From Sphingomicrobium lutaoense (GTDB taxonomy: Bacteria; Pseudomonadota; Alphaproteobacteria; Sphingomonadales; Sphingomonadaceae), in assembly GCF_014195685.1 (NCBI RefSeq), contig NZ_JACICF010000001.1, positions 1,125,317 to 1,189,316 on the forward strand: a stretch of 64,000 nt of DNA, read 5' to 3'. A program made the translations under genes and the position numbers. The number at the start of each line of letters is the position of its first letter. Position 1 is the stretch's first letter. Shown in pieces: positions 360 to 16,636 of the stretch. The notes beneath the pieces were generated by a model, which was given only the letters and a program-made list of their open reading frames with translations, was not told where the DNA came from and made no database searches.

Positions 360-3300
360 TTAGAACTCGTATTTGATGCCGACCTGGGCGCGCCAGACCG
401 AGGCGCTTTCGAGGACGTCATTGTCATCATCCGGATTGAAGCCGGTGATTTCATAACGACCCTGGTCGTCGATCTCGACATCCACGACGTCAACGAGGCG
501 GTCGCGGGTGCGCAGGGCATTCCAGCTACCGTCGAGGAAGTTGAGGAAATTGTCGAAGTCGATGAACAGTTCGACACGGTCATTGACGCCGAACAGGCGC
601 GCCGGGCCCGGGATTTCCTGGCTCAAGCGCAGATCGAGGTCGAAGAACCAGTCGTTGCGGCAGCTATTGCCTTCGATCGACTTGCCGAACTCGAAGTCGC
701 AGCCCGAATTGGCGACATAGTCAACCAGCTGGGCGACCGCGTTGGGATCGCTGTTGGGCGACAGGTTTGGATCGTTGATGCCGAAGGGCACGTAGAGCAG
801 GGCATTATCGCTGCCCGACGAGCTGTCGTTGAACACGCCGCCACCATCGAAGGTCAGGCTGTACGGACGGCCCGAACGACCACGGAAGACCATGCCGAAG
901 CTGGTTTCGAAGTCGTCGAAGAACTCTTCCTTGAAGTTCACCGCAGCAGTGAAGTTGTGGGTGTTCTGGTAGGTCGAGGTCCGGATGGCCGGGTCCTGGC
1001 GATCGAACGCGGCGGTACGGTCATAGCCCGAGGTCGCGGTCGAATTGTCGTTGGTGCGGCGTTCGTCGGCGTCGGTATAGGCATAGCCGAGGTTGAGGAA
1101 CACGCGGCCGCCGTCGGTGAAGACGCCGCCGTTGAACCGCTTGCGCAGGATGACCGAGGCGGTGTGGCTGTCATAGCCATCGGCGTTGGTCAGCATGATC
1201 TCGTCGTCGCGACGCGTCCCGAAGCAGTCGTCGGTGACACCCGTCCAGACAGGCGGGGTGCCCGCCGAAACGAGCTGCGCATTACAGCCCGACTGGGTCG
1301 GGTCGATCGGACGATAGATCGGACGACCGTCGACGGTGAAGCCGCCGAGGCCTTCATCGGGATCGATGACCTGCGAGAGATCGACGAAGTTGTAGGGGTT
1401 CCGGAAGCGGCTATAGATATAGTCGAGGTTGACCGACCAATCGTCGAAGAAGCCGCCCGAACCGTCACCGAAGCGAGTCGAGAGACCGAGGTTCATGCGA
1501 AGAACCGTCGGGATCTTGATGTTCGGATCGGTCGACTGGGTATCGGCGAGGCCGCGAGCCGCGGAATCCGAACCATTGGCACGGATACAGTCGGGGAAGC
1601 CGGTGAACTGGCCGTTGGTGACCACGTCGATGCGGCCATCGACCATCGGTTCGCCCGAGCAATCGGCGAAACGTTCGGTGCCGAGACCGGTCGAGAAGCC
1701 GTTGTTCGAGAAGGCGTTCGAGAACCACACGGTCGGATCACCGCCCGAGAAGATGCCGACGCCGCCCTTGAGCTGAGTCGAATAGAAGGTGCCGTCATTG
1801 TCGAAATTGTAGGTGAAGGCGGCACGCGGCAGCCAGACGGCGTCGATGTCATCGAAGCTGGTGGCGTTCGAGAAGCCATAGCGCTCGACAAAGTTGGGAT
1901 TTTCCTTCGGACGGCTGCCCGAATAGAAATCGACGCGGGTGCCGAACAGCAGGTTGAGCTGGTCGTTGATCGCCCAGTCGTCTTGGATGTAGCCCGACCA
2001 GATGGTGCGGCTCCATTCGGCGGCGGCCTCATTGATGTCACCGGTCGGGGTGGCATTGATGTCCGCGCCGTAGCCCGAGCCGACAAAGGTTTCCTCGGCA
2101 TCCGGGAAGAAGTCGCGGCCGGTGTTCAACAGGCCTTCGCGAAGTGCATCGAAGTCGCGGAAGTAGAGCGTGCCCGTCGCGTTGATCGCGAAGAGGTTGA
2201 ACACGTCGAGCTTGTTGCGTTCGGCACCGATGGTGAAGAAGTGATTGCCGGCACGCAGGTTCGCCGCGGCCTTCCACTGTTCGACGACGGTGTCGAGCTG
2301 GTTGGCCGAGCGGAAGATGCCCGGGCCGTCCGTCAGATAGCCGATTTCACAGCCCGGTGCGTCGGGCGTCGGCGCGTCGGAAGTGCCGCATTCGGGCGTC
2401 GCGACCGCGACGGCAAGGCGCGGCTTGGGATTGTCGGACTGGGCTTCGCCGCCGCCGACAGGGCCCTGGACGTCACCGACCTCGGCGCGCGACCAGCGCA
2501 GTTCGGTCGAGAAATTGTCGGTCCAGTCGGAGAAGAAGCGGAGCGAATAATAGTCGCTGTTGGTGCCTTCGGCTTCGAAGCTGTTGTAGCCGGTGTAGGC
2601 GTTGCCGCCATAATCCGCTTCGACGTTAAGCTCTTCAAGCTTCTGGTAGGTGCCTTCGAGGCGGTGATCGTCGGTGATGTAGGCATCGACGCGAGCGAAA
2701 TAGCGCTCGTTCATTTCCGGGGTCGAACGAACGATACCGCCGGTTTCGCGGCCATAGACGTCGCGGACGATCTGGCTGAACTCGTTGAACTGGGCTTCGG
2801 TGACGAAGTTGAGTTCGTTCGGGAAGCCCGCGCCAACCGGACCTTCGTTGACGCTGTCGCCGGTGTCGGCTTCTTCATAACCGAGGAAGAAGAAGAGGCG
2901 ATCCTTGATGATCGGGCCGCCGAGAGTGGCGCCCCAGCGCTTTTCCTCGAATTCGGCGGGAATGAAGCTTTCGCCGCCGGCGGTGTCGCCGCGCAGGTCT
3001 TCGTTGCGGAAGGTGAAGAAGGCCGAGCCGTGGAACTCATTGGTGCCCGACTTGGTCACCACGTTGATGGCGCAGCCCGTGAAGTTGCCATATTCCACGT
3101 CGAAGGGCGCGAATTCGATCGCGGTTTCCTTCACCGCGTCGAAGGGCAGCGGAAGCGAGTTACGCGATGCAAAGGGGGTGCCATTGAGGCCGAACACGTC
3201 GGCCTGGGCGATGCCGTCGACGGTGAAGACGTTCGAACGGTCGTTGCCGCCGAGGCAGCTGATGCGATCGACTTCGTTGGCGCGGTCGAGGCTGACGCGC

Positions 3301-3803
3301 GGATCGATGCGGATGAAGTCGCGAATGTCGCGGGTGATGGTCGGGAGCGCTTCGAGCGTCTCGGTGCCGATCGACTGGCCCGGCCCGATGGCGAGCACGG
3401 TTTCACTGGCGCGGGCGCCGGTGATGATGATGGCTTCCGAGCTGACGTCGCCCGAAACGGCGGTCAGTTCGAAGGAGAGCGAGGTCGCACCCGAAAGATT
3501 GATGAAGAGGTCGTTGACCGTCTGGCCCTGGTAGCCGTCGGCGGTGACGGTGACCGTGTAAGGCCCGCCCGTCGGAAGGTTCGAGGCAGCGAAGCGGCCC
3601 TGGCCTTCGGTCCTCAGCGTGCTGGAGGCGCCGGTGCGCGTGTCGGTGACGACCACGGTGGCGCCCGAAATGACGCTGCCGTCTTCGGCGCGAACGTCAC
3701 CCTGGATGCCCGAGGTGGTCTGCTGCGCGGCGGCAGGCGCCGCCACGATCATCGAACCGGCGGAAAGCGCACTTGCCGCCAACAGGAAGCTAAACTTCTT
3801 CAT
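360..3803 (-). CDS. Oar-like TonB-dependent outer membrane receptor
   Basis: A 1147-residue outer-membrane beta-barrel protein. The N-terminus is a Sec signal peptide (MKKFSFLLAASALSAGSM, cleavage near the AAAQ at about 24-27). A carboxypeptidase-regulatory-like beta-sandwich follows (about 30-115; GDVRAEDGSVISGATV is typical), then a plug-like region (about 125-270) and a long barrel ending in YEF, the usual C-terminal aromatic of barrel proteins. Length and architecture match Oar-type TonB-dependent transporters (about 1000-1100 residues), which import large or unknown substrates. No transport partners or FecIR-type regulators adjoin it, so the substrate cannot be read from context. The ATG at 3803 is followed by a good signal peptide. 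It shares its terminator with the preceding convergent gene. Confidence 0.88.
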   Translation of the reverse strand: MKKFSFLLAASALSAGSMIVAAPAAAQQTTSGIQGDVRAEDGSVISGATVVVTDTRTGASSTLRTEGQGRFAASNLPTGGPYTVTVTADGYQGQTVNDLFINLSGATSLSFELTAVSGDVSSEAIIITGARASETVLAIGPGQSIGTETLEALPTITRDIRDFIRIDPRVSLDRANEVDRISCLGGNDRSNVFTVDGIAQADVFGLNGTPFASRNSLPLPFDAVKETAIEFAPFDVEYGNFTGCAINVVTKSGTNEFHGSAFFTFRNEDLRGDTAGGESFIPAEFEEKRWGATLGGPIIKDRLFFFLGYEEADTGDSVNEGPVGAGFPNELNFVTEAQFNEFSQIVRDVYGRETGGIVRSTPEMNERYFARVDAYITDDHRLEGTYQKLEELNVEADYGGNAYTGYNSFEAEGTNSDYYSLRFFSDWTDNFSTELRWSRAEVGDVQGPVGGGEAQSDNPKPRLAVAVATPECGTSDAPTPDAPGCEIGYLTDGPGIFRSANQLDTVVEQWKAAANLRAGNHFFTIGAERNKLDVFNLFAINATGTLYFRDFDALREGLLNTGRDFFPDAEETFVGSGYGADINATPTGDINEAAAEWSRTIWSGYIQDDWAINDQLNLLFGTRVDFYSGSRPKENPNFVERYGFSNATSFDDIDAVWLPRAAFTYNFDNDGTFYSTQLKGGVGIFSGGDPTVWFSNAFSNNGFSTGLGTERFADCSGEPMVDGRIDVVTNGQFTGFPDCIRANGSDSAARGLADTQSTDPNIKIPTVLRMNLGLSTRFGDGSGGFFDDWSVNLDYIYSRFRNPYNFVDLSQVIDPDEGLGGFTVDGRPIYRPIDPTQSGCNAQLVSAGTPPVWTGVTDDCFGTRRDDEIMLTNADGYDSHTASVILRKRFNGGVFTDGGRVFLNLGYAYTDADERRTNDNSTATSGYDRTAAFDRQDPAIRTSTYQNTHNFTAAVNFKEEFFDDFETSFGMVFRGRSGRPYSLTFDGGGVFNDSSSGSDNALLYVPFGINDPNLSPNSDPNAVAQLVDYVANSGCDFEFGKSIEGNSCRNDWFFDLDLRLSQEIPGPARLFGVNDRVELFIDFDNFLNFLDGSWNALRTRDRLVDVVDVEIDDQGRYEITGFNPDDDNDVLESASVWRAQVGIKYEF

Positions 3804-4045
3804 GGTTGAAAATTCCCCGCATAGAAAAATCGATATCCGCGCCCGTTTCGTTCGCGTCGCCGCGCCCGCTAGGCAGATTTTATGACATGCGTGTGAAACG
3901 TCGCCGCTTCATCATGCCAAACTGGGTTTTAGTGTGACCCCCACACATCATTGCCCTTTGCCCTTATGGACAAAGGAGTCAACCGCACGTCCCGCAAGAT
4001 GCACGGATAATCGGCAATTGATTCAGGGGTGTGGCCCAAATTAGT

Positions 4046-5239
4046 TCAGGCCTGTGGCCAATTCTCCATAATCTCGACGAATCGCGAGAGCCAAGCATTG
4101 GTCTGGTGACCATCGACGACGCGATGGTCGATCGTCAGCGTGACATAGGCCATCGGGCGGATCACCATCACGTCCTGCCCGTCGAGTTCGCGGACCACCA
4201 CGCGCTTTTCAAGCTTGCCCACGCCGAGGATCGCGGCCTGTCCCTGGTGGAGGATGATCGGCGCGGCGAGAAGGCTGCCCGAGACGCCGTGGTTAGAGAT
4301 AGTGAAGCTGCCGCCCGCCACGTCCTTGCGGTCAAGCCGGCCTTCGCGGGCGCGGGTCGTGAGATCGTCGAGGCGCGCGCCCACGTCCTTCAGCGAAAGC
4401 GAGTCTGCGTCCTTGACCACCGGGACCACCAGCCCCTTTTCGCCGAGCGCGGTGCCCACGCCGATGTCGATGGTGGGCGAAATGGCGATGCGATCCTCTT
4501 CCCAGCGACCGTTGATCGCGGGAGCGGCGGCCATCGCCTCGGCGGCGGCCTTCACGATATAGGCGGTGTAGGAGAGCTTGACGCCCTTGACCTTCATCGC
4601 CGCCTTGTGCTCGGCGACCGCCGAGAAATCGCATTCGAAGAGCGCGGTGACATGGGGAGCGTCGCTGACGGCGCGGACCATGTTTTCGGCAATGGTGCGG
4701 CGCATCCGGTCGTGCGGGATGTCCTCGGCGCTGAACGGAGCCGAGGAGACCGCGATGGCCGGGCCTTCGGCAATGACGCGCTTCACGTCCTCGAGCGTCA
4801 CCCTGCCCCCGCGTCCCGTGCCTTCGAGGCAGGACGGATCGAGGTCATGCTGGAGACAGGCGCGGCGCACCGCGGGCGAAAGGCGTGTTTCCTTCTGGAT
4901 CGCGGCCTTGTCCACCAAACCGCCGGTGGGAGCGGCAGGCGCGGGCTCGGGCGCTTCTTCCTTCGTTTCCGGCGAAGGCGCAGCCGCGGCGGCGGCCTTG
5001 CCCTCGGTGTCGATGCGGGCGAGCAGCGCGCCCGGTTCGGCCTCGGCATCGCTGTCGAGAAGGATTTCGGCGAGTATGCCTGCCGCCGGCGCAGGAACTT
5101 CCTGCGTGACCTTGTCGGTTTCCAGTTCGACCAGCGGGTCATTCTCTCTGACGCTGTCGCCGACCTGCTTGAGCCAGCCGCGGACGACCGCCTTGGTGCC
5201 TTCCTGTTCCTCGGGAACCAGAACGTCGATCATGCTCAT
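4046..5239 (-). CDS. 2-oxo acid dehydrogenase E2 (dihydrolipoamide acyltransferase)
   Basis: A 397-residue acyltransferase of a branched-chain-type 2-oxo acid dehydrogenase complex. It transfers the acyl group from E1 to CoA through a swinging lipoyl arm. Seen: an N-terminal lipoyl domain with the attachment lysine at about residue 43 (ETDKVTQEV), an Ala/Pro/Glu linker, an E3-binding domain (LSPAVRRACLQHDLD), and the CoA acyltransferase domain with the catalytic DHRVVDGH motif at 371-378. Only one lipoyl domain is present. The ATG overlaps the E1 stop by one base (TGATG), so translation is probably coupled. No E3 gene lies in the window, so a shared lipoamide dehydrogenase must be encoded elsewhere. 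Its position at the end of the paa-aminotransferase operon suggests an aryl-pyruvate substrate, but classical branched-chain oxo acids are equally possible. Confidence 0.9.
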   Translation of the reverse strand: MSMIDVLVPEEQEGTKAVVRGWLKQVGDSVRENDPLVELETDKVTQEVPAPAAGILAEILLDSDAEAEPGALLARIDTEGKAAAAAAPSPETKEEAPEPAPAAPTGGLVDKAAIQKETRLSPAVRRACLQHDLDPSCLEGTGRGGRVTLEDVKRVIAEGPAIAVSSAPFSAEDIPHDRMRRTIAENMVRAVSDAPHVTALFECDFSAVAEHKAAMKVKGVKLSYTAYIVKAAAEAMAAAPAINGRWEEDRIAISPTIDIGVGTALGEKGLVVPVVKDADSLSLKDVGARLDDLTTRAREGRLDRKDVAGGSFTISNHGVSGSLLAAPIILHQGQAAILGVGKLEKRVVVRELDGQDVMVIRPMAYVTLTIDHRVVDGHQTNAWLSRFVEIMENWPQA

Positions 5240-7287
5240 CAGAACTCCAGCATTTCTTCGATCCTGGCGCGAATATCCTCCACGCCCGGCACCGCGGCTT
5301 CGAGCAGCTTGGGATGATGCGGGCTGGGAATGTCGGGCATCGTCACCCGTTCGACCGGCGCGTCGAGATCGAGGAAGGCCTCGTCGGCGACCACCGCGGC
5401 GATCTCGGCGCCGAAGCCGCCGGTACGCAGGTCTTCATGGACGATCAGGCAGCGATGCGTCTTCGCGACGCTTTCGAGCACCATTTCCTTGTCCCAGGGC
5501 ATCAGCGTGCGAAGGTCGATGACTTCGCCGCCCATATCCTTGGCGGCGGCTTCGCAGCGCGGGACCATCGCACCCCAGCTGACGATGGTGATGCGGTCGC
5601 CTTCCATCGTCTTCTTCGCCCGCCCGAAAGGCAGGACATAATGATCGCCCGGCCAGGGACGGCGTGCCCAGCTGTCGTCGAGCATCGCGCGATGTTCGAA
5701 GAAGATGGTCGGATCGTTGCCGCGCAGCGCCATGCGCAGGAGCCCGACCGCATCTTCGGCATTGGACGGGACCGCGACGCGCCAGCCCGGATTGTGGACG
5801 AACTGCACCTCGTTGGTCTGGCTGTGCCAGGGATCGCCGCATTTGAAGAAGCCGCCGGGAATGCGCAGCACCATCGGCGCGGCGAAGCGGTTGTGGGTGC
5901 GCCAGCGGATCGTGCCGCAATCGTTAATCTGTTCGGTCGCGGGCTCGGCATATTTGCGAAACTGGATCTCGGGAACGGGAAGCAGCCCCGCCATCGCCAT
6001 CCCGACCGCGCGCCCGACGATGCCTTCCTCGTTTAATGAGGTGTCGAAGACGCGGTCATGGCCGAACTTTTCCTGGAGGCCGAGCGTCACCGCATGGACG
6101 CCGCCCTTGGGGCCGACATCCTCGCCGAAAACGCTCATCTTCGGATTGGCTTCCAATTCCTGGTCGAGCACCTTGCGGATGGCGGTGACCATGTTGATGC
6201 GCTGGCCCTCGGGGCGCGGATCCTCATGGGTGCCATCGAGGCCCAGGCCCGCCTGCCCGCCGACCTTGGCATGTTCGCCTTCGAAATAGACATGGCCGGT
6301 CACGTCTTCGGGGTCCGAGACGCCGCGCGCCTCCGCCTCTTCGCGGGCCTTGTCGACTTCGCTGGCGACCGATGCCTCGATCCGGTCCCAGTCGAGATTG
6401 TTGTTGAGGGCCTTGAGCTTGGGCAAGGGATCGCGTGCCCATTCGGCGGCGATTTCCTCTTCGCTCTTGTAGGTCTGGGTATCCTGCGCCGAATGGCCCT
6501 CGAGGCGCGGAACGGTAAGGCGAAGCAGCGCCGGACCCTTGCGACCGCGCACATGGGCGACCGCCTTGCCGATGAGGTCGGCGGCCTCTTCGGGCTCGGT
6601 CCCGTCGCCGTTGAAGATTTCGAGATTCCTGAAGCTGGCGAGGTTGGCGGCGATGTCCTGGCCCGGCGTCTGGTAGGTCGAGGGCACCGAGATGCCGTAG
6701 CCATTGTCCTCAATATAGAAGAGTAAGGGCAGTTTCTGCGTGGTGGCGATGGTGAGCGCCGACCAGAAGCCGCCGGTCGAGCAGCTGGCGTCGCCCCCGA
6801 GCACCACCGCGATCGCGCCATCATCCTCTTCGCCGAGCACGCGGGCCTTGTAGGTGATCGCCTGCGCCCAGCCGGCAGCGGGCGTATATTGCGCCCCTAC
6901 CCCGCCGCACATCGGCAGCGCGTGGCAGCCGCCGGGATTGGGATAGTTGAACACCACCCCGATATCGCGGCCATCCGAATAGCCACCTTCGCGGCCCATT
7001 CCGGAGCCAAGCGCGTCGGCAAGCTTCACGCCCAGGGCCAGCAGCATCGGGCGCGAGCGGTAATAGCCGCACGCCGCATCGCCGTCGCGAAGATGCAGGC
7101 CGAGGATGACCTGCGCCATGTCATGGCCGCGCGCCGAGAATTGGTAGAGGACCTTGCGGGCGGGAACGAGCTCCTCTTCCTCGAGCCGGTCCATCTCGCG
7201 GCTGGTGAGCACCAGCCGAGCGACATCTTCCCAGCTAAAGGCGGGTTCGCTTTTGGTGTCGGCGCCTTTCTCCATCACCTCAGCCAT
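5239..7287 (-). CDS. Fused E1 alpha/beta 2-oxo acid dehydrogenase
   Basis: A 682-residue thiamine-diphosphate-dependent E1 in which the alpha and beta chains form one polypeptide. It decarboxylates a 2-oxo acid and acylates the E2 lipoyl group. Residues 1 to about 340 are alpha-like, with the ThDP/metal motif GGDASCSTGG...EDNGYGIS. Residues from about 360 on are beta-like (FGEDVGPKGGVH, LNEEGIVGRAVGMAMAG, ending in a transketolase C-terminal domain). The start is the ATG at 7287: GGAGG lies 6 bases upstream and the alpha homology begins just after it. The open frame runs further upstream, but that part only shadows the aminotransferase gene. The start overlaps the aminotransferase stop by 8 bases. 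Such fusions are known among branched-chain-type E1 enzymes; the substrate here is not settled. Confidence 0.9.
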   Translation of the reverse strand: MAEVMEKGADTKSEPAFSWEDVARLVLTSREMDRLEEEELVPARKVLYQFSARGHDMAQVILGLHLRDGDAACGYYRSRPMLLALGVKLADALGSGMGREGGYSDGRDIGVVFNYPNPGGCHALPMCGGVGAQYTPAAGWAQAITYKARVLGEEDDGAIAVVLGGDASCSTGGFWSALTIATTQKLPLLFYIEDNGYGISVPSTYQTPGQDIAANLASFRNLEIFNGDGTEPEEAADLIGKAVAHVRGRKGPALLRLTVPRLEGHSAQDTQTYKSEEEIAAEWARDPLPKLKALNNNLDWDRIEASVASEVDKAREEAEARGVSDPEDVTGHVYFEGEHAKVGGQAGLGLDGTHEDPRPEGQRINMVTAIRKVLDQELEANPKMSVFGEDVGPKGGVHAVTLGLQEKFGHDRVFDTSLNEEGIVGRAVGMAMAGLLPVPEIQFRKYAEPATEQINDCGTIRWRTHNRFAAPMVLRIPGGFFKCGDPWHSQTNEVQFVHNPGWRVAVPSNAEDAVGLLRMALRGNDPTIFFEHRAMLDDSWARRPWPGDHYVLPFGRAKKTMEGDRITIVSWGAMVPRCEAAAKDMGGEVIDLRTLMPWDKEMVLESVAKTHRCLIVHEDLRTGGFGAEIAAVVADEAFLDLDAPVERVTMPDIPSPHHPKLLEAAVPGVEDIRARIEEMLEF

Positions 7288-8479
7288 CCATTGCCTCCAG
7301 AACCGCCTTGCAGAAGCGGTCGACGTCGTCGTCCGAGAGGCCGACCACGTTGAAGCGGCCGCTGTCGGCCATGTAGATGGCATGGTCCTCGCGCAGCTTG
7401 TCGACTTGCGCGGGAGTGAGCGGAAGCATCGAGAACATCCCCTTCTGATCCTCGATATAGGCGAGCCGCGAATCGCAGGCGGCGATGCGGCGGCGAAGCT
7501 GGTTGATGCGGGCGCGCATGCTGGCGACTTCGTCGAGCCATTCCTGGCGAAGATCGTCATTTTCCAGGACGATGCGCACCGCCGCCGCGCCATGATCGGG
7601 CGGCATCGACCACATTTCGCGGGCGAGCTGCATGACATGGTCCATCGCCCGGGCCGAGGCCTCGGGACTGCCGGCCTTGAAGAAGAGGCAGCCGACGCGG
7701 TCGCGATAGACGCCGAAATTCTTGTCGCAGCTTTGCGAGACGATGATTTCGTCGACCGCACCCATCAGCCCCTGAAGCCCCGCGCCATCTTCCTCGAAAC
7801 CGTCGCCAAGGCCCTGGTAGGCGATATCGACGAAAGGCAGGATGCCCTTGTCGGCGATGATCGCGCGCACCTTGGCCCATTGGCCGTGGTCGAAATCGGC
7901 ACCGGTCGGATTGTGGCAGCAGCCATGGAGCAGCGCGACATCGCCGGGCCGGGCATTTTCGAACGCCTCGACCATCGCGTCGAAGTCGATCCGCGTCTCT
8001 TCCTTGCGATAATAGGGATAGGTGACGATCTCGAGCCCGGCGCCGCGGATGAGCGGTTCGTGATTGGCCCAGGTCGGCGTGCCGACGAGGACGCGGGCGT
8101 CGGGGCGCGCGGCCTTCACCAGCTTGAAGCCCAGGGTGAGTGCGCCGCAGCCGCCCGGCGTCTGGAGGCCCATCAGCGCGGGATCGTCGGCATGGCTGCC
8201 GAACACCACGGGTTTCAAGAGTTCGGGGAAGAGCTTGTCGCCCTTCATGCCAAGATAGCCCTTGCTCTCTTGGCTTTCCCAGAGGCGCTTCTCGGCCTTC
8301 TTGACTGCCGAGAGAATGGGCGTGGCGCCGTCGCTGGTGCGATAGACCCCGACCCCGACGTCGATCTTCTCGGGGCGTTCGTCCTCCATCGCCATCGCGA
8401 TGAGGCGCAGCAAGGCGTCGGTTTCGATCTCGGGAAGGCTGCCCAGCATCGGGGCGCGCGTGTCAGGTTCGCTCAGCAT
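7280..8479 (-). CDS. Aromatic/aspartate aminotransferase (class I, TyrB/AspC type)
   Basis: A 399-residue PLP-dependent aminotransferase of the AspC/TyrB subgroup. Seen: the PLP lysine in SQSCDKNFGVYRDRVG, the cofactor-binding aspartate and tyrosine in VDIAYQGLGDG, the substrate-loop asparagine in HNPTGADF and the carboxylate-binding arginine in SGRFNVVGL. Length is normal for the family. It would transaminate phenylalanine or tyrosine to the aryl-pyruvate with 2-oxoglutarate; sequence alone does not separate this from aspartate use. It lies 40 bases downstream of paaE and overlaps the fused E1 by 8 bases, so it sits between the phenylacetyl-CoA epoxidase and a 2-oxo acid dehydrogenase. That context favours an aromatic substrate. 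Confidence 0.87.
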   Translation of the reverse strand: MLSEPDTRAPMLGSLPEIETDALLRLIAMAMEDERPEKIDVGVGVYRTSDGATPILSAVKKAEKRLWESQESKGYLGMKGDKLFPELLKPVVFGSHADDPALMGLQTPGGCGALTLGFKLVKAARPDARVLVGTPTWANHEPLIRGAGLEIVTYPYYRKEETRIDFDAMVEAFENARPGDVALLHGCCHNPTGADFDHGQWAKVRAIIADKGILPFVDIAYQGLGDGFEEDGAGLQGLMGAVDEIIVSQSCDKNFGVYRDRVGCLFFKAGSPEASARAMDHVMQLAREMWSMPPDHGAAAVRIVLENDDLRQEWLDEVASMRARINQLRRRIAACDSRLAYIEDQKGMFSMLPLTPAQVDKLREDHAIYMADSGRFNVVGLSDDDVDRFCKAVLEAMDG

Positions 8480-8519
8480 GGGCGGGGCTTAGCCGGAAAT
8501 TGGCCGATCCGCAAAGCCC

Positions 8520-9596
8520 TCACGCGTCGTAATCGACCTTGACCCCGTCTCCCTTCGGGACGGATTGGCAGGTGAGAATATAGCCCGCGGCGATTTCCTC
8601 GTCGGTGAGGCCGTAGCGCGCGCCCATCTCGACATCGCCTTCGGTGACGCGGGCGCGGCAGGTGGCGCAGACCCCGGCCTTGCAGGCGAAGGGCGCGGGC
8701 AGACCCGCTTCGCGAGCGCTGTCGAGGATATTGTCGCCGTTGAATTCGACCTTGCGCGCGCGGCCGTCGAGCGTGACCCACATGTGGGTGCCCGAGGCCT
8801 GTTGCTTGGCCTGCGCCAATTGGGCGGCGACCGCCGCCGAAGGACGGCCCGCGGTGAATCGTTCGATATGGATGCGCGGCTTGTCCACCCCGGCATCGAG
8901 GAGCGCGGCTTCGGCGGCGTCCATCATCGGGCCCGGGCCGCAGATGAAATAGGATTCGACCGCCTTGGGGTCGCGGACGAGATCCTCGATCACCGCATCG
9001 CAGGTCTCGCGGTCGAGCATGCCGTTGAACAGGTCGACATCGCCCGCTTCCTCCGAGAGGAAGTGGAACAGTTCGAACCGGCCCATGTAGCGGTCCTTGA
9101 GGTCGCTCAATTGGTCGAGGAAAATGACGCTCGAGGAATCGCGGTTGCCGTAGAAGAGCGTGAAGCGCGCCTCGGGCTCGCGGGCGAGCGCGGTGCGCAG
9201 GAGGCTCATGATCGGGGTGATGCCCGAACCGCCGGCGAAGGCAACATAATGGCGCGGCGGCGCGGACTCGTCGAAATCATAAGTGAAGGAGCCGTGCGGG
9301 GGCAGGACGTCGAGACGGTCACCTTCCTTCAGATGGTCGCCCACCCAGTTGGAAAAGACCCCGCCAGCGATCCGTTTCACCGTGACCTTCAGCTGGCCTT
9401 CGTGCGGCGCGACGCAGAGCGAATAGTTGCGGCGGACTTCCTCGCCGTCGATCGTCGCCTTCAGCGTGAGATGCTGGCCCGCCTTGAAGGCGAAGGTCTC
9501 GGCCAATTCCTCGGGCACGGCGAAGCGGACCGAATTGGCGTCCTCGGTCTCGGGAGTGATCTCCGCGACCGTAAGTTCGTGGAAATGTTCGCTCAT
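8520..9596 (-). CDS. paaE: Phenylacetyl-CoA epoxidase reductase subunit PaaE
   Basis: A 358-residue flavin/iron-sulfur reductase that passes electrons from NAD(P)H to the diiron oxygenase PaaAC. Domains in order: an FAD-binding ferredoxin-reductase barrel (about 1-105, RRNYSLCVAP), an NAD(P)-binding domain (GGSGITPIMSLL; FICGPGPMMDAAE), and a C-terminal plant-type 2Fe-2S ferredoxin domain with cysteines in FACKAGVCATCRARV and a fourth in ILTCQS. The length matches known PaaE proteins. It starts one base after the paaC stop, so the usual paaD position between paaC and paaE is empty. Confidence 0.95.
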   Translation of the reverse strand: MSEHFHELTVAEITPETEDANSVRFAVPEELAETFAFKAGQHLTLKATIDGEEVRRNYSLCVAPHEGQLKVTVKRIAGGVFSNWVGDHLKEGDRLDVLPPHGSFTYDFDESAPPRHYVAFAGGSGITPIMSLLRTALAREPEARFTLFYGNRDSSSVIFLDQLSDLKDRYMGRFELFHFLSEEAGDVDLFNGMLDRETCDAVIEDLVRDPKAVESYFICGPGPMMDAAEAALLDAGVDKPRIHIERFTAGRPSAAVAAQLAQAKQQASGTHMWVTLDGRARKVEFNGDNILDSAREAGLPAPFACKAGVCATCRARVTEGDVEMGARYGLTDEEIAAGYILTCQSVPKGDGVKVDYDA

Positions 9597-9597
9597 G

Positions 9598-10446
9598 CTA
9601 CCACTTGGCGTCCGGATAGGTGCGCGGCAGGAACTGCATTACCGCGAGAAGATGGCCGAGATGTTCGCTGTGATGGCCGCGGCGGCCGCCGAGGATCGGG
9701 CGCTGGTCGGCGGGAGCTTCGAGCTGCGCTTCGGCGAGAATGTTCGCGAGCGCGGCGCGATAGTCGTCCTCGAACTCGCGCGGGTCGGCCGCGATGCCGC
9801 GTTCGATGAGTTCCTCGCGCTCCTTCGTGACTTCGAACAGTTCGGGGATGAAGCGCCAGTTCCAGTCGAGGCCGTCGGCCATTCGGCGGGCGCTTTCCTC
9901 GGTGCCGTCGCCGAGACGGATCACCCAGTCCGATGCCAGTTCGCGATGGTAGGCGACTTCCTTGACGCTCTTGGCGGCGATTTCGCGGACCTGCTGGTCG
10001 CTCGAGCCGGTGAGCCGTTCGAGGAGCATATGCTGCCAGGTCGAGAAGAGGAATTGGCGCGCCATCGTCTGGGCGAAATCGCCATTGGGCTGTTCGACCA
10101 TCAGGCAGTTCTTGAAGTCGAGCACGTCGCGGTGGAAGGCCAGCGCGTCGGCATCCTTGCCGTCGAGGCACTCGGCGGCCGCGCCGAGCCAATTGGTGGC
10201 CTGTCCGATGAGGTCGAGGCCCATGTTGGCGAGGCTGAGATCGACTTCGACGCTGGGCGCGTGGCCGCACCATTCGCCGAGCCGTTGTCCGAGGATCAGC
10301 GCATCGTCGCCCAGTTCGAGGAGATAGTCGACGCTGGCCTGGTCGCGTTCGCGGGTGACGGGCGCGTCGAAGGCGCCTTCGTCCTTGCCGTCACGCGCCT
10401 TGGCGGCGGCGACGTCCTTCTTGTCGATGATCGGCGGGCTGGACAT
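9598..10446 (-). CDS. paaC: Phenylacetyl-CoA epoxidase structural subunit PaaC
   Basis: A 282-residue ferritin-like subunit that partners PaaA in the 1,2-phenylacetyl-CoA epoxidase. Typical PaaC segments are DYLLELGDDALILGQRLGEWCGHAP, the helical core with MARQFLFSTWQ and VKEVAYHRELASDWVIRLGDGT, and a C-terminal GRRGHHSEHLGHLLAVMQFLPRTYP. About 30 hydrophilic residues precede the conserved start of the family; the E. coli protein is shorter, near 248 residues. The ATG overlaps the paaB stop by one base (TGATG). Confidence 0.94.
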   Translation of the reverse strand: MSSPPIIDKKDVAAAKARDGKDEGAFDAPVTRERDQASVDYLLELGDDALILGQRLGEWCGHAPSVEVDLSLANMGLDLIGQATNWLGAAAECLDGKDADALAFHRDVLDFKNCLMVEQPNGDFAQTMARQFLFSTWQHMLLERLTGSSDQQVREIAAKSVKEVAYHRELASDWVIRLGDGTEESARRMADGLDWNWRFIPELFEVTKEREELIERGIAADPREFEDDYRAALANILAEAQLEAPADQRPILGGRRGHHSEHLGHLLAVMQFLPRTYPDAKW

Positions 10447-10733
10447 CAGATATGCTTCACCTCGTCAGGGATCTCGTAGAAGGTCGGGTGGCGATAGACC
10501 TTGTCGCGCGCGGGTTCGAAGGTCTGGCCCGCTTCGTCGGGATCGGAAGCGACGATGTCGTTCGACTTGACCACCCAGAGGCTGACGCCTTCCATGCGGC
10601 GGGTATAGGTGTCGCGGGCGTGGTGGAGCGCCATTTCCTCGTCCGGCGCGTGGACCGATCCGACATGGCGATGGGCCAATCCGCCCTTGGCGCGGACGAA
10701 AACTTCCCAGAGGGGCCAGTCATGGCCGGTCAT
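10446..10733 (-). CDS. paaB: Phenylacetyl-CoA epoxidase subunit PaaB
   Basis: A 95-residue small subunit of the phenylacetyl-CoA epoxidase, which bridges PaaAC units in the multicomponent complex. The start (WPLWEVFVRAKGGLAHRHVGSVHAPD) and the ARDTYTRRMEGVSLWVV segment are diagnostic, and the length is standard. An AGGGAG ribosome-binding site precedes the ATG. It is followed by paaC with a one-base overlap and lies 66 bases downstream of paaA. Confidence 0.96.
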   Translation of the reverse strand: MTGHDWPLWEVFVRAKGGLAHRHVGSVHAPDEEMALHHARDTYTRRMEGVSLWVVKSNDIVASDPDEAGQTFEPARDKVYRHPTFYEIPDEVKHI

Positions 10734-10799
10734 GCGCGTCTCCCTTGTGACCGTGGATGGCGCGGAGCTTTACGCCCCTGCCCGAAGCGAAGGCAAGTG

Positions 10800-11795
10800 T
10801 CAGGCGACCTTCGCGGCGCGTTTCCTGGCGGCATGGGCGTCGGCGGCCTCGCGGACCCAGGCATTCTTTTCCCAGGCATCGCGGCGGGCCTTCATCCGCT
10901 CCTTGGCGACGGGGCCTTCGCCGCGCACCACGGCATAGAATTCCTCCCAGTCGATCTCGCCGAAGTCGTAGCCGCCCTTTTCCTCGTTCCAGGCGAGGTC
11001 GGAATCGGGAACGGTGAGGCCGAGGAATTCGGCCTGCGGAACGGTGATGTCGACGAATTTCTGCCGCAGTTCGTCATTGGTCTCGCGCTTGATGCGCCAG
11101 CGCATCGAGCGTTCGGTATTGGGCGACTTGTCGTCGGGCGGGCCGAACATCATGAGGCTGGGCCACCACCAGCGATTGAGCGCGTCCTGCGCCATGCGGC
11201 GCTGTTCCCCGGTGCCGTTGGCGAGCGCGATCATCGCTTCATAGCCCTGGCGCTGGTGGAAGCTTTCCTCCTTGCAGACGCGGACCATCGCGCGGGCATA
11301 GGGGCCGTAGCTGGTGCGCTGCAGGGGAACCTGGTTCATGATCGCCGCGCCGTCGACCAGCCAGCCGATCGCGGCGATATCCGCCCAGGTGAGCGTAGGA
11401 TAGTTGAAGATGGTGCTGTACTTCGCCTTGCCCGAATGGAGAGCCTCGACCATCTCCTCGCGGCTGGTGCCGAGCGTCTCGGCGGCGCAATAGAGATAGA
11501 GGCCGTGCCCGGCTTCGTCCTGCACCTTGGCGAGGAGGATCGCCTTGCGCCGCAGCGACGGCGCGCGGGTGATCCAGTTGCCTTCGGGAAGCATGCCGAC
11601 GATTTCCGAATGGGCGTGCTGCGAAATCTGGCGGACGAGGGTCTTTCGATAGGCCTCGGGCATCCAGTCCTTGGGTTCGATGAATTCGTCGGCGGCGACG
11701 CGCCGTTCGAATTCCTCCACCAGCGCGGGATCCTCGGCGCCGTCGATGGCGGTGACGTTGCGCTTGGGCTGCTTGTCCAGTTCGGTCGTGTACAT
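10800..11795 (-). CDS. paaA: Phenylacetyl-CoA epoxidase catalytic subunit PaaA
   Basis: A 331-residue diiron oxygenase subunit that converts phenylacetyl-CoA to ring-1,2-epoxyphenylacetyl-CoA. Metal-ligand helices are visible as [14 protein letters not shown] and [13 protein letters not shown], the paired E-x-x-H motifs of the bacterial multicomponent monooxygenase fold. Length and collinearity match PaaA throughout ([30 protein letters not shown]). It is the first gene of the minus-strand operon paaA-B-C-E, aminotransferase, E1, E2. The ribosome-binding site before the ATG at 11795 is weak. No PaaX- or PaaR-type regulator is visible beside it. Confidence 0.96.
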
Positions 11796-11868
11796 GGCGC
11801 CTAGATAGGCATGAAACGGGGGATTTTCAATCCGATCCGAAGGCCCCCTTCAGCCCATGCGGGACGGG

Positions 11869-12375
11869 TCATTCATAATCCACGACGACTTCGATCGTGC
11901 CCTCATAGTCGCCCGAGGAATCGGGTTCGATGCGGATCGCGCCGCCGACCGCGAAGTCGAGGCCCTTGTTGCCATTGTTGGGCAATTGGATCCGGTCGGG
12001 ACCGTCGGGCGTGAACGCGAGCCGCGAGCCGTCGATCGGATTGACGAGATCATTGGCGACGATGGTGACGATGACCGCGGCCTCCTTCGAGCCTTTGACA
12101 TTATAGAGCGCGGGCATCGCCACCCCGCTGCAGGCAAGCGGAGCCGGACAATCGAGCGTTCCGTCCTGCCCGATGCTGATGGTGACCGGCGAAGCGATCG
12201 TGGGCACCGCGACCGTGCCGAAATCCAGGTCCTGCAGCGAAGTGAGCGAAAGCGGCTTGAGGACCTTCACCTTGACCTTGGCGCCCTGCGACTTGCCCTG
12301 CGCGCTCGCTTCGCCCGGCGCAGCGAAAAGCGCGCCTGCGAGTGAGAGTGTGGCAAATAGGTTCCGAAGCTGCAT
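11869..12375 (-). CDS. Secreted DUF4402-domain protein
   Basis: A 168-residue exported protein with a clear signal peptide (LRNLFATLSLAGALF, cleavage near ASAQ). It is followed by a DUF4402-type beta-rich domain: the LDFGTVAVP opening, a lone disulfide-capable pair in LDCPAPLACSG, and the closing GGAIRIEPDSSGDYEGTIEVVVDYE. Members are surface or periplasmic proteins of unknown function, sometimes near pili. The start at 12375 is chosen because an AAAGG site lies a suitable distance upstream; an ATG at 12393 is also possible. The C-terminus lies 73 bases from the start of paaA, in the same direction, so this gene could be read into the paa operon. Confidence 0.75.
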   Translation of the reverse strand: MQLRNLFATLSLAGALFAAPGEASAQGKSQGAKVKVKVLKPLSLTSLQDLDFGTVAVPTIASPVTISIGQDGTLDCPAPLACSGVAMPALYNVKGSKEAAVIVTIVANDLVNPIDGSRLAFTPDGPDRIQLPNNGNKGLDFAVGGAIRIEPDSSGDYEGTIEVVVDYE

Positions 12376-12457
12376 GGCCGCCTTTTCGAGCATCTGAGCA
12401 TTTCGCTTGCCTGCCCTTTTGGCGATGCGTGGTAAAAAAGGCGTTAACCATGCGCCC

Positions 12458-13054
12458 TCAGCGCTGGGCGAGCGCCTCCTCGACCTGGCCGAGCCGGTCC
12501 TTGCCGAAATAGAGATCATCGCCGAGCAGGAAGGCGGGCACGCCAAAGGCGCCTTTTTCATAAGCCGCCTCGGTATGGGCGCGCAGCCGGTCCTTCACCG
12601 CCTGGTCGGCGGTCGCTTCGATCAGGCGGTCGGCATCGAGCCCGGCCTCGGCGAGCGAAGCGTGGAGCCGTTCGGGATCGTCGAGCTTGCGCGGCTCTTC
12701 CCACATGAAATGGAACAGCGCCTCGGCGAGGTCGGCCCGCTCCTCCTCTTTCGCGGCGCAGACGGTGCGCATCGCCATCACGCTGTTCACGGGAAAGTCG
12801 GGGTTCCAGCGGAAATTGTCGATGCCGTGCCGGTCCATGAAGCGGTGGAATTCCAGCCGTTCATAATCGAGCTTCTTCGGCACCTCAGCAAAGGCGACCA
12901 TCGGTGCGCGGTTTCCGCTCAATTTGAACAGCCCGCCAAGAAGCACCGGGACATAGTCGAACCAGCGTCCGCTGCGCGCCTCCACCTCGGGCAGGACGCG
13001 GTGAACGAGATAGGCATTTGGACTGGCGACATCGAAGAGAAATTGGGGCGTCAT
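12458..13054 (-). CDS. DsbA-family / 2-hydroxychromene-2-carboxylate isomerase-like protein
   Basis: A 198-residue thioredoxin-fold protein of the kappa-GST / HCCA isomerase group. It begins FLFDVASPNAYLVHRVLPEVEAR, where the redox CxxC is replaced by SPNAY as in the isomerases. Internal NPDFPVNSVMAMR and the C-terminal GAFGVPAFLLGDDLYFGKDRL are typical. HCCA isomerases act in naphthalene catabolism with glutathione; many sphingomonad members have no proven substrate. Three consecutive ATGs lie at 13060, 13057 and 13054; GGAAGG sits 1, 4 and 7 bases before them respectively, so the third is preferred. It lies between the two paa blocks, divergent from paaG. Confidence 0.78.
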   Translation of the reverse strand: MTPQFLFDVASPNAYLVHRVLPEVEARSGRWFDYVPVLLGGLFKLSGNRAPMVAFAEVPKKLDYERLEFHRFMDRHGIDNFRWNPDFPVNSVMAMRTVCAAKEEERADLAEALFHFMWEEPRKLDDPERLHASLAEAGLDADRLIEATADQAVKDRLRAHTEAAYEKGAFGVPAFLLGDDLYFGKDRLGQVEEALAQR

Positions 13055-13210
13055 CATCATGCCTTCCAAACCGGCGGGAGGACCCCGGACGAGCCCCCTG
13101 CCCGTCCCCTCGCCTCCGCCCTTTTTGGAGGATCGACACTAGACGCGGGCGCGCATGGTCGGCAAATCGCCCGCAAGACGTAGCGACCGATGGACGAGGG
13201 GGAGCCGAGG

Positions 13211-13984
13211 ATGGAGACGATTCGCACCGAGAGAGACGGTCATGTGGTGACCATCACCTTGAACCGGCCCGACCGGCTCAACAGCTTTACCCGCGACATG
13301 CATGGCGAGTTGCAGGCGGCATTCGGGTCGCTCGGCGATGCCCGGGTGGTGATCCTGACCGGCGAGGGTCGCGGTTTCTGCGCGGGGCAGGATCTCAACG
13401 ATCGCAATGTCGCGCCCGGCGAAGCGGTCGACCTGGGCGAGACGGTCGAGCAATGCTGGAACCCGCTCATCCGCCTACTCGCGACGATCGAGCAGCCGGT
13501 AATCGCCAAGGTCAATGGCGTGGCAGCGGGCGCGGGCGCAAATATCGCGCTGGCGTGCGACATAATCTTCGCGGCGCGTTCGGCCAAGTTCATCCAGAGT
13601 TTCTCGGCGCTGGGTCTCATTCCCGACAGCGGGGGCAGCTGGCACCTGCCGCGCCTTGTCGGCCAGCAGCGCGCGCTTGGTCTTGCGCTGACCGGCCAGC
13701 CGCTGATGGCCGAGGATGCCGAGCGCTGGGGCCTTATCTGGAAAGCGGTCGATGACGAACAGCTCGACGGGGAAGTCGAGAAGGTCGCGAAGAAGCTCGC
13801 CTCGTTGCCGCCGCTGGGGCTGGCGGCGATCAAGAAGATGATCCGCACCAGCTGGAGCCGGACGCTCGACGAGGAACTCGACCTTCAGCGCGACGAGATG
13901 CGGCGGCTCGGTTTCACCGAGGATTATCGCGAGGGCGTGGCCGCCTTCCTTGAAAAGCGCGAGCCGAGTTTCAGCGGACGCTAG
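13211..13984 (+). CDS. paaG: PaaG: 1,2-epoxyphenylacetyl-CoA isomerase (crotonase fold)
   Basis: A 257-residue enoyl-CoA hydratase/isomerase-superfamily enzyme. PaaG converts ring-1,2-epoxyphenylacetyl-CoA to the seven-membered oxepin-CoA. Seen: the N-terminal VVTITLNRPDRLNSF, the oxyanion-hole segments RGFCAGQDLNDR and GVAAGAGANIALACD, and the catalytic-region LGLIPDSGGSW with the aspartate characteristic of PaaG/PaaB-type isomerases. The ATG at 13211 is preferred over one at 13190 because GGGGAG lies 6 bases upstream of it. It ends in a 14-base tail-to-tail overlap with the PilZ gene. The metabolic partners paaABCE and paaZ lie on either side. Confidence 0.88.
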   Translation: METIRTERDGHVVTITLNRPDRLNSFTRDMHGELQAAFGSLGDARVVILTGEGRGFCAGQDLNDRNVAPGEAVDLGETVEQCWNPLIRLLATIEQPVIAKVNGVAAGAGANIALACDIIFAARSAKFIQSFSALGLIPDSGGSWHLPRLVGQQRALGLALTGQPLMAEDAERWGLIWKAVDDEQLDGEVEKVAKKLASLPPLGLAAIKKMIRTSWSRTLDEELDLQRDEMRRLGFTEDYREGVAAFLEKREPSFSGR

Positions 13985-14614: not shown

Positions 14615-16636
14615 ATGAAAACGATCGAACTGATGAATTATGCGCGCGGCGAATGGGTGTGCGGTGCGGGCGATCTGCGCCCGATCCCCAGCGCCATCGA
14701 CGGAAGCGAAGTCGCGCGGACCGGTTCGGACGGCCTGGATTTCAAGGCCATGCTCGACCATGCGCGCAAGGTCGGCGGACCGGCGCTGCGGGCGATGACT
14801 TTCCATGAGCGGGCCTGGATGCTGAAGTCGCTCGGTCTCGCCATCATGGAGCGAAAAGAGGAGCTATATGCGCTCAATCCCCATTCGGGCGCGACGCGCA
14901 AGGACGGCTGGATCGACATCGACGGGGGTGCGCTGACGCTGCTCAGCTATTCGTCGAAGGGTCGCAAGGAACTCCCGGATGCCAAGGTCCTGCTCGACGG
15001 GGCGCTCGAACCCCTGTCGAAGGAAGGCAATTTCGTCGGCCAGCACATCCTTAGCCCGATGCAGGGCGCGGCGGTACATATCAACGCCTTCAACTTCCCC
15101 GTCTGGGGGATGCTCGAGAAGATGGCGCCGACGCTGCTTGCGGGAATGCCGTGCATCGTGAAGCCCGCGACCGCGACCAGCTATCTCACCGAAGCGGCGT
15201 TCCGCATCCTCATCGAGACGGGCGTGCTTCCCGACGGGGCGGTGCAGCTGATCGTCGGCGGGGTCGGCGACCTGTTCGAACATCTGAATGGTCAGGACAT
15301 CGTCAGCTTCACCGGCTCGGCGCAGACCGCGGGCAAGCTCAAGAACCATCCTACCGTGCTGCGCGAGAGCGTGCGCTTCATCGCCGAGCAGGACAGCCTC
15401 AATGCCTCGATGCTGGGGCTCGATGCTGCGCCCGGCACGCCGGAGTTCGACCTGTTCATCCGCGAGGTCGTCACCGAGATGACGGTTAAGGCGGGGCAGA
15501 AATGCACCGCGATCCGCCGCGTGATGGCGCCCGCCGAGCATCTCGACGCGGTCGAGAAGGCGATCCGCGAGAAATTGGCGGCGATGACCATCGGCGATCC
15601 GCGCGAGAAGGAAACGCAGCTGGGCTGCCTTGTCAGCCGGTCACAGCGCGACGATGTGCGCGCCAAGGTGGCCGAACTGGTCGCGGGCGGTGCGCGGATC
15701 GTGCATGGCGATCCCGAGGCCGAGGTCGGCCCCGAGGGCGGCGCCGCGATTTCGCCCGTGCTGTTGCGCGCCGACGATCCCTGGAGCGCCGATGCTGTGC
15801 ATGATGTCGAGGCCTTCGGGCCGGTCGCCACCGTGATGCCCTACCAGGACGTCGAGGATGCGATCGCGCTCGCCAATCGCGGCCAGGGGAGCCTGGCGCT
15901 TTCGCTGTTCAGCAATGACCGCGAACTGGCGGGACGCTTCATTCGCGGCGCGGCGGCCTTTCACGGGCGGATGCTGGTGATCAACCGTCACAATGGCCGC
16001 GAATCGACCGGTCATGGTTCTCCGCTTCCGGTACTCGTCCATGGCGGGCCGGGCCGTGCGGGCGGGTCGGAGGAAATGGGCGGGATCCGCGGAGTGAAAC
16101 ATTACATGCAGCGCACCGCGATCCAGTCGACGCCCGACATGATCGCGGCGATCAGCGATCAATATGTGCCCGGCGGACCCAAGCGGCTGATCGACACCCA
16201 TCCCTTCAGGCTCAAGATGAGCGAATTGGAAATCGGCGACACGCTCAAGACCGAGAGCCGGACGGTGACGGTCGAGGATATCGAGCATTTCGCCGAGTTC
16301 ACGGGCGACAATTTCTACGCCCATATGGACGAGGAAGCCGCCAAGGCCTCGCCCATATTCGAGGGGCGGGTCGCACATGGCTATCTTATCCTCAGCTTTG
16401 CCGCCGGGCTGTTCGTCCATCCCGACCCCGGCCCCGTGCTGGCCAATACGGGCCTCGAGAACCTGCGCTTCCTCACTCCGCTCTATCCCGGCGATAGCAT
16501 GCGGGTCGAGCTGACCGTGCGGTCCAAGTCGATCAAGTCGGACGAAACCGGCGTGGTCAAATGGGCGGTCGAGATCTTCAACCAGAAGGACGAGATGGTC
16601 GCGACCTACGACCTTCTCACCGAGAACACTCCCTAG
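14615..16636 (+). CDS. paaZ: PaaZ: oxepin-CoA hydrolase / semialdehyde dehydrogenase fusion
   Basis: A 673-residue bifunctional enzyme that opens oxepin-CoA and oxidises the resulting aldehyde in the phenylacetyl-CoA pathway. Residues 1 to about 520 form an aldehyde dehydrogenase domain with the catalytic cysteine in AGQKCTAIRR and the general base in FIAEQDSLNA. The C-terminal part (about 530-673) is a MaoC-like hydratase with the paired catalytic Asp/His in FTGDNFYAHMDEEAA. Length and order match PaaZ (about 680 residues). The ATG at 14615 follows an AGAAAGG site; the open frame extends upstream without homology. A bidirectional terminator follows. Confidence 0.95.
   Translation: MKTIELMNYARGEWVCGAGDLRPIPSAIDGSEVARTGSDGLDFKAMLDHARKVGGPALRAMTFHERAWMLKSLGLAIMERKEELYALNPHSGATRKDGWIDIDGGALTLLSYSSKGRKELPDAKVLLDGALEPLSKEGNFVGQHILSPMQGAAVHINAFNFPVWGMLEKMAPTLLAGMPCIVKPATATSYLTEAAFRILIETGVLPDGAVQLIVGGVGDLFEHLNGQDIVSFTGSAQTAGKLKNHPTVLRESVRFIAEQDSLNASMLGLDAAPGTPEFDLFIREVVTEMTVKAGQKCTAIRRVMAPAEHLDAVEKAIREKLAAMTIGDPREKETQLGCLVSRSQRDDVRAKVAELVAGGARIVHGDPEAEVGPEGGAAISPVLLRADDPWSADAVHDVEAFGPVATVMPYQDVEDAIALANRGQGSLALSLFSNDRELAGRFIRGAAAFHGRMLVINRHNGRESTGHGSPLPVLVHGGPGRAGGSEEMGGIRGVKHYMQRTAIQSTPDMIAAISDQYVPGGPKRLIDTHPFRLKMSELEIGDTLKTESRTVTVEDIEHFAEFTGDNFYAHMDEEAAKASPIFEGRVAHGYLILSFAAGLFVHPDPGPVLANTGLENLRFLTPLYPGDSMRVELTVRSKSIKSDETGVVKWAVEIFNQKDEMVATYDLLTENTP

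Follow-up and report, generated by a model that had tools for sequence, protein, structure and literature searches.

A candidate phenylpyruvate dehydrogenase complex in the phenylacetyl-CoA epoxidase operon of Sphingomicrobium lutaoense

We analysed a 64,000-nucleotide stretch of the Sphingomicrobium lutaoense genome (the window; contig NZ_JACICF010000001.1, positions 1,125,317 to 1,189,316), in which the genes of the phenylacetyl-CoA epoxidase, PaaABCE, are followed on the minus strand by genes for an aminotransferase and for the E1 and E2 components of a 2-oxo acid dehydrogenase. Sequence comparisons indicate that this E1/E2 pair is very probably a phenylpyruvate dehydrogenase complex, phenylpyruvate being a main physiological substrate. 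The initial annotation of the window had proposed this function. It gains support from our failure to find the phenylacetate-CoA ligase PaaK, an indolepyruvate ferredoxin oxidoreductase or a phenylpyruvate decarboxylase in the genome, from a separate branched-chain dehydrogenase, from the co-occurrence of E1 with the epoxidase and from the repeated gene order. From these data we infer the substrate, as we infer the sharing of the E3 component (dihydrolipoyl dehydrogenase) and the co-transcription of the unit.

The operon would thus be catabolic and would bring L-phenylalanine into the phenylacetyl-CoA pathway, bypassing phenylacetate and PaaK. In the proposed route, the aminotransferase would convert L-phenylalanine to phenylpyruvate, which the fused E1, using thiamine diphosphate, would decarboxylate, passing phenylacetyl on to the E2 lipoyl arm; E2 would then move this group onto CoA. 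An E3 encoded elsewhere, probably shared with other complexes, would reoxidise the lipoamide with NAD+. The resulting phenylacetyl-CoA would undergo epoxidation by PaaABCE, isomerisation by PaaG, and opening and oxidation by PaaZ. We know of no step in this downstream pathway that requires a 2-oxo acid dehydrogenase.

Organization of the unit and its proteins

The genes lie in the order PaaA-PaaB-PaaC-PaaE-aminotransferase-fused E1-E2, with spacings of 66, -1, 1, 40, -8 and -1 bases (Table 1). This order, the strand and the spacing agree exactly with those of the initial annotation, and its family calls were borne out by NCBIfam and Pfam models, PaaE falling slightly below its cut-off. All four epoxidase subunits were identified, with A, B and C above the NCBIfam cut-offs and PaaE carrying FAD, NAD and 2Fe-2S domains. 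The longest E1 frame begins with a GTG at 7761, within the aminotransferase gene; we adopted the ATG at 7287, because the nearest relatives (L012-L015) align from residue 1. PaaD is not found between PaaC and PaaE (9596-9598), and a tblastn search of the window using PaaD, F, H, I, J, K, X and Y of E. coli (E 1e-5) revealed no PaaD and, as noted earlier, no paaK. The same search gave two matches only, of PaaF to the PaaG gene and of PaaJ to a thiolase gene at 57349-58518. This thiolase (PF00108, PF02803; 34% to E. coli PaaJ) may have a part in the lower pathway. Scanning of 3700-13300 detected no promoter-like site (1.1 in shuffles) and one terminator-like site, versus 7.2 in shuffles, and neither scan is informative.

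The closest solved relative of the aminotransferase is an aromatic aminotransferase (1ay4, 315.6 bits), with aspartate aminotransferases near (312.2 bits and less). E1 is a single chain of 682 amino acids that combines E1_dh, Transket_pyr and Transketolase_C domains, and E2 has lipoyl, E3-binding and 2-oxoacid_dh domains, each of these above its Pfam cut-off; the E2 translation also shows ETDKV and DHRVVDG. No NCBIfam model for named E1 or E2 proteins (pyruvate, oxoglutarate) scored above its cut-off with either protein. Among solved chains the alpha half of E1 best matched 1um9_A (92 bits). It reached just 32.5 bits with 2bp7/1qs0, the branched-chain 2-oxo acid dehydrogenase of P. putida, versus 502 bits for another copy in the genome; known branched-chain alpha chains are therefore not its closest matches.

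We aligned the fused E1 with the pyruvate dehydrogenase (PDH)-like and branched-chain chains of the same genome. Catalytic positions are conserved in E1, which retains the YR pair, a thiamine motif (GD...N), the histidine of the GHS loop and the glutamate of (N/S)EEGI. HSQ is common to E1 and both of the other chains, and EIQF to E1 and the branched-chain chain; E1 departs from both at LYQFSARGHD and FNYPNP...LPMCG.

Table 1. Genes of the proposed phenylalanine-to-phenylacetyl-CoA route in the window; coordinates of the minus-strand unit include stop codons
Feature	Coordinates	Strand	Evidence
PaaA, phenylacetyl-CoA epoxidase subunit	10800-11795	-	TIGR02156, 527.1 bits (cut-off 280); PF05138
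PaaB, epoxidase subunit	10446-10733	-	TIGR02157, 148.3 bits (cut-off 85.45)
PaaC, epoxidase subunit	9598-10446	-	TIGR02158, 278 bits (cut-off 133.35)
PaaE, epoxidase reductase subunit	8520-9596	-	TIGR02160, 414.1 bits, full-length (cut-off 420.8)
Aromatic amino acid aminotransferase (proposed L-Phe to phenylpyruvate)	7280-8479	-	NF006719, 465.4 bits (cut-off 377)
Fused E1 alpha-beta, 2-oxo acid dehydrogenase (proposed phenylpyruvate dehydrogenase)	5239-7287	-	PF00676, PF02779, PF02780
E2 dihydrolipoyl acyltransferase (proposed phenylacetyl transfer to CoA)	4046-5239	-	PF00364, PF02817, PF00198
PaaG, epoxide isomerase, next pathway step, divergent unit	13190-13984	+	TIGR02280, 365.5 bits (cut-off 345.15)
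PaaZ, hydratase and aldehyde dehydrogenase	14615-16636	+	TIGR02278, 987.5 bits (cut-off 562.8); start codon chosen within the open frame, profile scan from 14621

Routes to phenylacetyl-CoA in the genome

The initial annotation had called for a genome-wide search for paaK, an indolepyruvate ferredoxin oxidoreductase and a phenylpyruvate decarboxylase. We recognised none of them in the genome (2,079,099 bases, rated 100% complete). The best match to the PaaK model (TIGR02155) scored 29.4 bits versus a cut-off of 646.3, and the protein concerned is a fatty acyl-AMP ligase (874.6 bits). The search itself works, since the same model detects PaaK in 16 of 249 genomes of the family. No oxidoreductase of the indolepyruvate type was present; the single protein with a POR domain matched TIGR03710 above the cut-off and is a KorA-like 2-oxoacid:acceptor oxidoreductase subunit alpha. 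A TPP_enzyme_N profile search found no recognised phenylpyruvate decarboxylase. The lone protein above the cut-off has NF006052 as its best family (781.5 bits) and is PRK08199 or otherwise acetolactate-synthase-like (among the best 25 of 49 families); a second stretch, below the cut-off, falls within the KorA-like protein. As a separate observation, this TPP_enzyme_N protein (C1:1260660) lies under the cut-offs of the acetolactate synthase models among those best 25 families, so S. lutaoense may lack the ability to synthesise branched-chain amino acids.

The E1_dh domain occurs at five places in the genome, one being the fused E1 of the paa operon. Another is a separate alpha/beta pair, its alpha chain giving the 502-bit match to 2bp7/1qs0. 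The remaining three, assigned by eye and frame length, are a PDH-like alpha beside a beta with a lipoyl-like start, a 935-residue frame taken for oxoglutarate dehydrogenase, and a DXS-like protein. The usual routes to phenylacetyl-CoA were therefore not found in the genome, and the branched-chain dehydrogenase is a distinct gene pair. The initial annotation had stated that absence of such a separate enzyme, together with a preference of this E1/E2 for isovaleryl precursors, would speak against its proposal.

Co-occurrence and gene order in relatives

To follow E1 across the family we compared by hand the lists of genomes, 249 in total, with matches to E1 (E at most 1e-150), PaaB (1e-20), PaaK (1e-150) and the branched-chain E1 alpha chain (1e-120). 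E1 was present in 24 genomes and PaaB in 27, with both together in 23 (Fisher's test, p = 2e-27, uncorrected for kinship). The 24 E1 genomes span 11 genera, and five belong to the genus of the window. In the one genome with E1 and no PaaB (G409), E1 runs to the end of a 5,031-base contig of a 180-contig assembly; PaaB occurs without E1 in four. All 16 genomes with PaaK, 15 of them above the model cut-off, contain PaaB. The 27 PaaB genomes thus divide into 13 with E1 and PaaK, 10 with E1 only, three with PaaK only (G307, G357, G449) and one with neither (G474).

At the threshold used, 10 of the 23 genomes with E1 and PaaB have no PaaK. In all 10 of these, E1 and PaaB share a contig and are no more than 15 kb apart, versus 5 of the 13 with PaaK (p = 0.003, uncorrected for kinship), although in five of the remaining eight genomes the two genes are on separate contigs, so some may be linked. 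The branched-chain E1 alpha was found in 203 genomes, 22/24 with E1 and 181/225 without it. The fused E1 is therefore no substitute for it. In stretches from genomes G330, G341 and G339 (L095-L097), E1/E2 adjoins paa genes in three more arrangements, and PaaK is missing from the stretch; in those of the three genomes with PaaK only (L098-L100, from G357, G307 and G449), PaaK is in or near the paa cluster, with no E1. A class-wide sample of 289 genomes was of little use for co-occurrence, with E1 (E at most 1e-100) in just three, all PaaB-positive. PaaB occurs in 33 of these genomes, 30 of them without E1, which indicates that the complex is one entry among others.

We then examined gene neighbourhoods, as the initial annotation had proposed. 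Scanning named genomes turned up 487 stretches containing an E1 relative, and the best 80 (L012-L091, 68-90% identity) were used. We located flanking genes by tblastn, the queries being proteins of the window and Paa proteins of E. coli. Those for PaaA, B, C, D, G, Z and K, by set identity limits, were counted as core paa genes, and at least two had to be present for a flank to qualify. E2 directly follows E1 at 76 loci, and the remaining four stretches stop within 140 bases of E1. A same-strand aminotransferase gene is immediately upstream of E1 at 41/80 loci, and PaaE, aminotransferase and E1 are contiguous at 27, too often for a coincidence; the gene order is thus not unique to this strain, a possibility the initial annotation had raised against itself. 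Core paa genes flank E1 at 51/80 loci, and at 32/49 of those with at least 9 kb on each side. With E. coli PaaD (tblastn, E 1e-8) no PaaD was found in the 27 contiguous loci (L012-L036, L038, L040), and it is present at many loci outside this arrangement. A divergent Lrp/AsnC-type gene was detected by tblastn at 36/80 loci (Pfam was run on the L091 gene and on a further such gene from L055). Next to the L091 gene lies one for a PaaX-like regulator (259.0 bits, cut-off 264.55). A dihydrolipoyl dehydrogenase above the cut-off directly follows E2 at only two of the 80 loci, L051 (Bosea) and L086 (Martelella), giving E1-E2-E3 contiguously; in L087 a weaker match lies about 3 kb upstream of E1.

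In a quick E1 tree of 80 rows, with state changes counted where the flank allows and 12 rows in no group, the contiguous arrangement forms a single clade, its 27 rows being 26 loci plus the window. The paa-near state needs at least seven changes, and the four arrangement classes need 12. The link between E1 and paa genes has thus been kept or remade in several lineages, among them Acetobacteraceae (L062, L088), Ensifer (L071), Marinicaulis (L049, L073), Caulobacteraceae (L056, L087) and one Pseudomonas (L052). Moreover, PaaB is encoded in 26 of 28 genomes whose E1 loci have no flanking core paa genes (L070 left out), versus 33/289 in the class sample, a class-wide rate and not one specific to Pseudomonas or rhizobia. 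The two misses, L037 and L055, are both metagenome-assembled genomes (MAGs); L044 and L045, checked too, were positive.

From 17 of the loci without core paa genes we took 182 neighbour proteins and scanned about 20 for families. Clusters of neighbour open reading frames chosen by length had been set aside as containing antisense frames of GC-rich genomes, with 5 of 10 representatives giving no Pfam match; genes were then chosen by tblastn and a codon-position score. In the scanned part we saw no branched-chain catabolic genes.

Other genes near the unit include one for a DsbA-like thioredoxin-fold protein (PF01323; 12461-13069), located between paaABCE and paaG. Downstream of the unit and on its strand, 360-3803 encodes a large beta-barrel protein of the outer membrane that carries a carboxypeptidase-regulatory domain (PF25183, PF13620), and similar genes are present in L013 and L014.

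Alternative functions, known systems and implications

Several results weigh against a phenylpyruvate dehydrogenase. Core paa genes are missing from the flanks of 29/80 loci, some being short contigs, and the neighbours scanned there are mostly unrelated, some of putrescine type: xylulokinase-like, PotF-like, the putrescine regulator PtrR (above cut-off, L057), a siderophore receptor, an antiporter, a diguanylate cyclase, a class-III aminotransferase, an alcohol dehydrogenase and others. The pocket positions of E1 give no proof of aryl specificity, and we base no claim about specificity on them. PaaK is also present in 13 of the 23 genomes with E1 and PaaB, so the complex is not always the sole entry, and CoA ligases of other subfamilies might act on phenylacetate as a side activity. 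Genome G474 has a paa cluster and neither E1 nor PaaK at the thresholds used, indicating that a lack of PaaK does not require E1; its 19.9-kb stretch (L093) contains paaF, E, D, C, B, A, J, I, H, G and Z, and no E1, E2 or PaaK. Finally, at 1e-120 no branched-chain E1 alpha was detected in two of the 24 E1 genomes (G338, G342), where E1 could have a double role.

A rival idea is that the pair is a second branched-chain (or pyruvate) dehydrogenase located in the paa operon by chance. Both proteins have homologues in those complexes and would commonly be annotated as such. Indeed, the beta half of E1, in a further point against a phenylpyruvate enzyme, is about equally near to pyruvate dehydrogenase (1ik6, 249 bits), 1um9 (232.5 bits) and branched-chain 2bp7/1qs0 (227.5 bits). 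However, the paa association recurs across lineages, and a P. putida-like branched-chain E1 is encoded separately here and in nearly all E1 genomes. We reject a branched-chain main role because of this separate copy and its distribution with and without E1, and consider this rival idea improbable. Even less probable is that the complex feeds phenylacetyl-CoA to a tropone-like or phenylglycine-like product and not to growth. Tropones branch off the paa pathway (PMC7497051), and PglB/PglC of Streptomyces are described as performing the same step toward phenylglycine (PMC7089894), but the window encodes PaaG as well as a PaaZ that has its aldehyde dehydrogenase domain and its hydratase domain, which completes ring opening, and none of the few flanking genes scanned is biosynthetic.

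A general aryl-2-oxo acid dehydrogenase, for which phenylpyruvate would be one of several substrates (4-hydroxyphenylpyruvate, indolepyruvate) and its product would enter PaaABCE, is a possibility we hold only tentatively. An aromatic aminotransferase gene adjoins E1, and the frequent divergent Lrp/AsnC-type gene suggests amino-acid control. Also, in a Pseudomonas MAG (L048, 6635-15223) the order is hmgA, fahA, (divergent Lrp), E1, E2, maiA and HPPD, without flanking paa genes; homogentisate dioxygenase, fumarylacetoacetase, maleylacetoacetate isomerase and 4-hydroxyphenylpyruvate dioxygenase (HPPD) are all above cut-offs and on one strand with E1/E2. This is an aromatic amino acid cluster around E1/E2, at a single locus, and it also speaks for the phenylpyruvate role; maiA of this kind was not found at the other 79 loci. 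The recurrent partner of E1 is, however, the phenylacetyl-CoA pathway (the 51 loci above), and no indole or hydroxyphenylacetate pathway genes were noticed in the small part of the neighbours scanned. A broader aryl-oxo acid range is quite possible and is compatible with the phenylpyruvate role; the two readings overlap, and our confidences in them do not add up to one.

Compared with known systems, the pair shares E1/E2 domain plan and chemistry with the branched-chain dehydrogenase of P. putida, whose alpha and beta parts are separate chains and whose substrates differ. The canonical E. coli K-12 paa catabolon (L092) has PaaABCE, PaaG and PaaZ in common with the window; its cluster also includes paaK and paaD, whereas we found no PaaK in the S. 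lutaoense genome and no PaaD in the window. Phaeobacter inhibens reportedly employs an indolepyruvate ferredoxin oxidoreductase, a type not found in S. lutaoense, which has the E1/E2 pair instead. Phenylalanine in P. inhibens can pass directly, via phenylpyruvate, to phenylacetyl-CoA (PMC7497051), likewise bypassing free phenylacetate and PaaK. In Streptomyces pristinaespiralis the pyruvate dehydrogenase-like PglB/PglC, also E1-type alpha and beta proteins, are proposed to convert phenylpyruvate to phenylacetyl-CoA (PMC7089894). They are two separate subunits in an antibiotic precursor operon, unlike the fused E1 and E2 of a paa operon. Other articles report PaaK absent from two Sphingopyxis strains (PMC7273453) or name PaaK or phenylacetate-CoA ligase (PMC9007349, PMC9281055, PMC9493321). 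In the portions of open-licence literature consulted we found no description of a dedicated E1/E2 dehydrogenase in a paa operon. Precedents thus exist for the reaction; what is new, to the extent of our reading, is a dedicated complex within a paa operon when PaaK is absent.

If the E1/E2 pair acts on phenylpyruvate, it would provide an enzyme for ATP-free conversion of phenylpyruvate to phenylacetyl-CoA and fill a gap in phenylalanine catabolism, as 11 of the 27 PaaB genomes of the family have no PaaK at the threshold used and 10 of these have E1. It would also put right the probable mislabelling of such pairs as branched-chain dehydrogenases, and would suggest that surveys anchored on PaaK, such as one already published (PMC13186573), miss such genomes and undercount the pathway. 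We think it reasonably likely that this unnamed complex is widespread, being a main amino-acid entry to the catabolon in sphingomonads, persisting in rhizobia, acetic acid bacteria, Caulobacterales and pseudomonads, and having become the sole entry in some lineages. Those lineages would run the catabolon from phenylalanine alone, saving ATP, gaining NADH and releasing no free phenylacetate.

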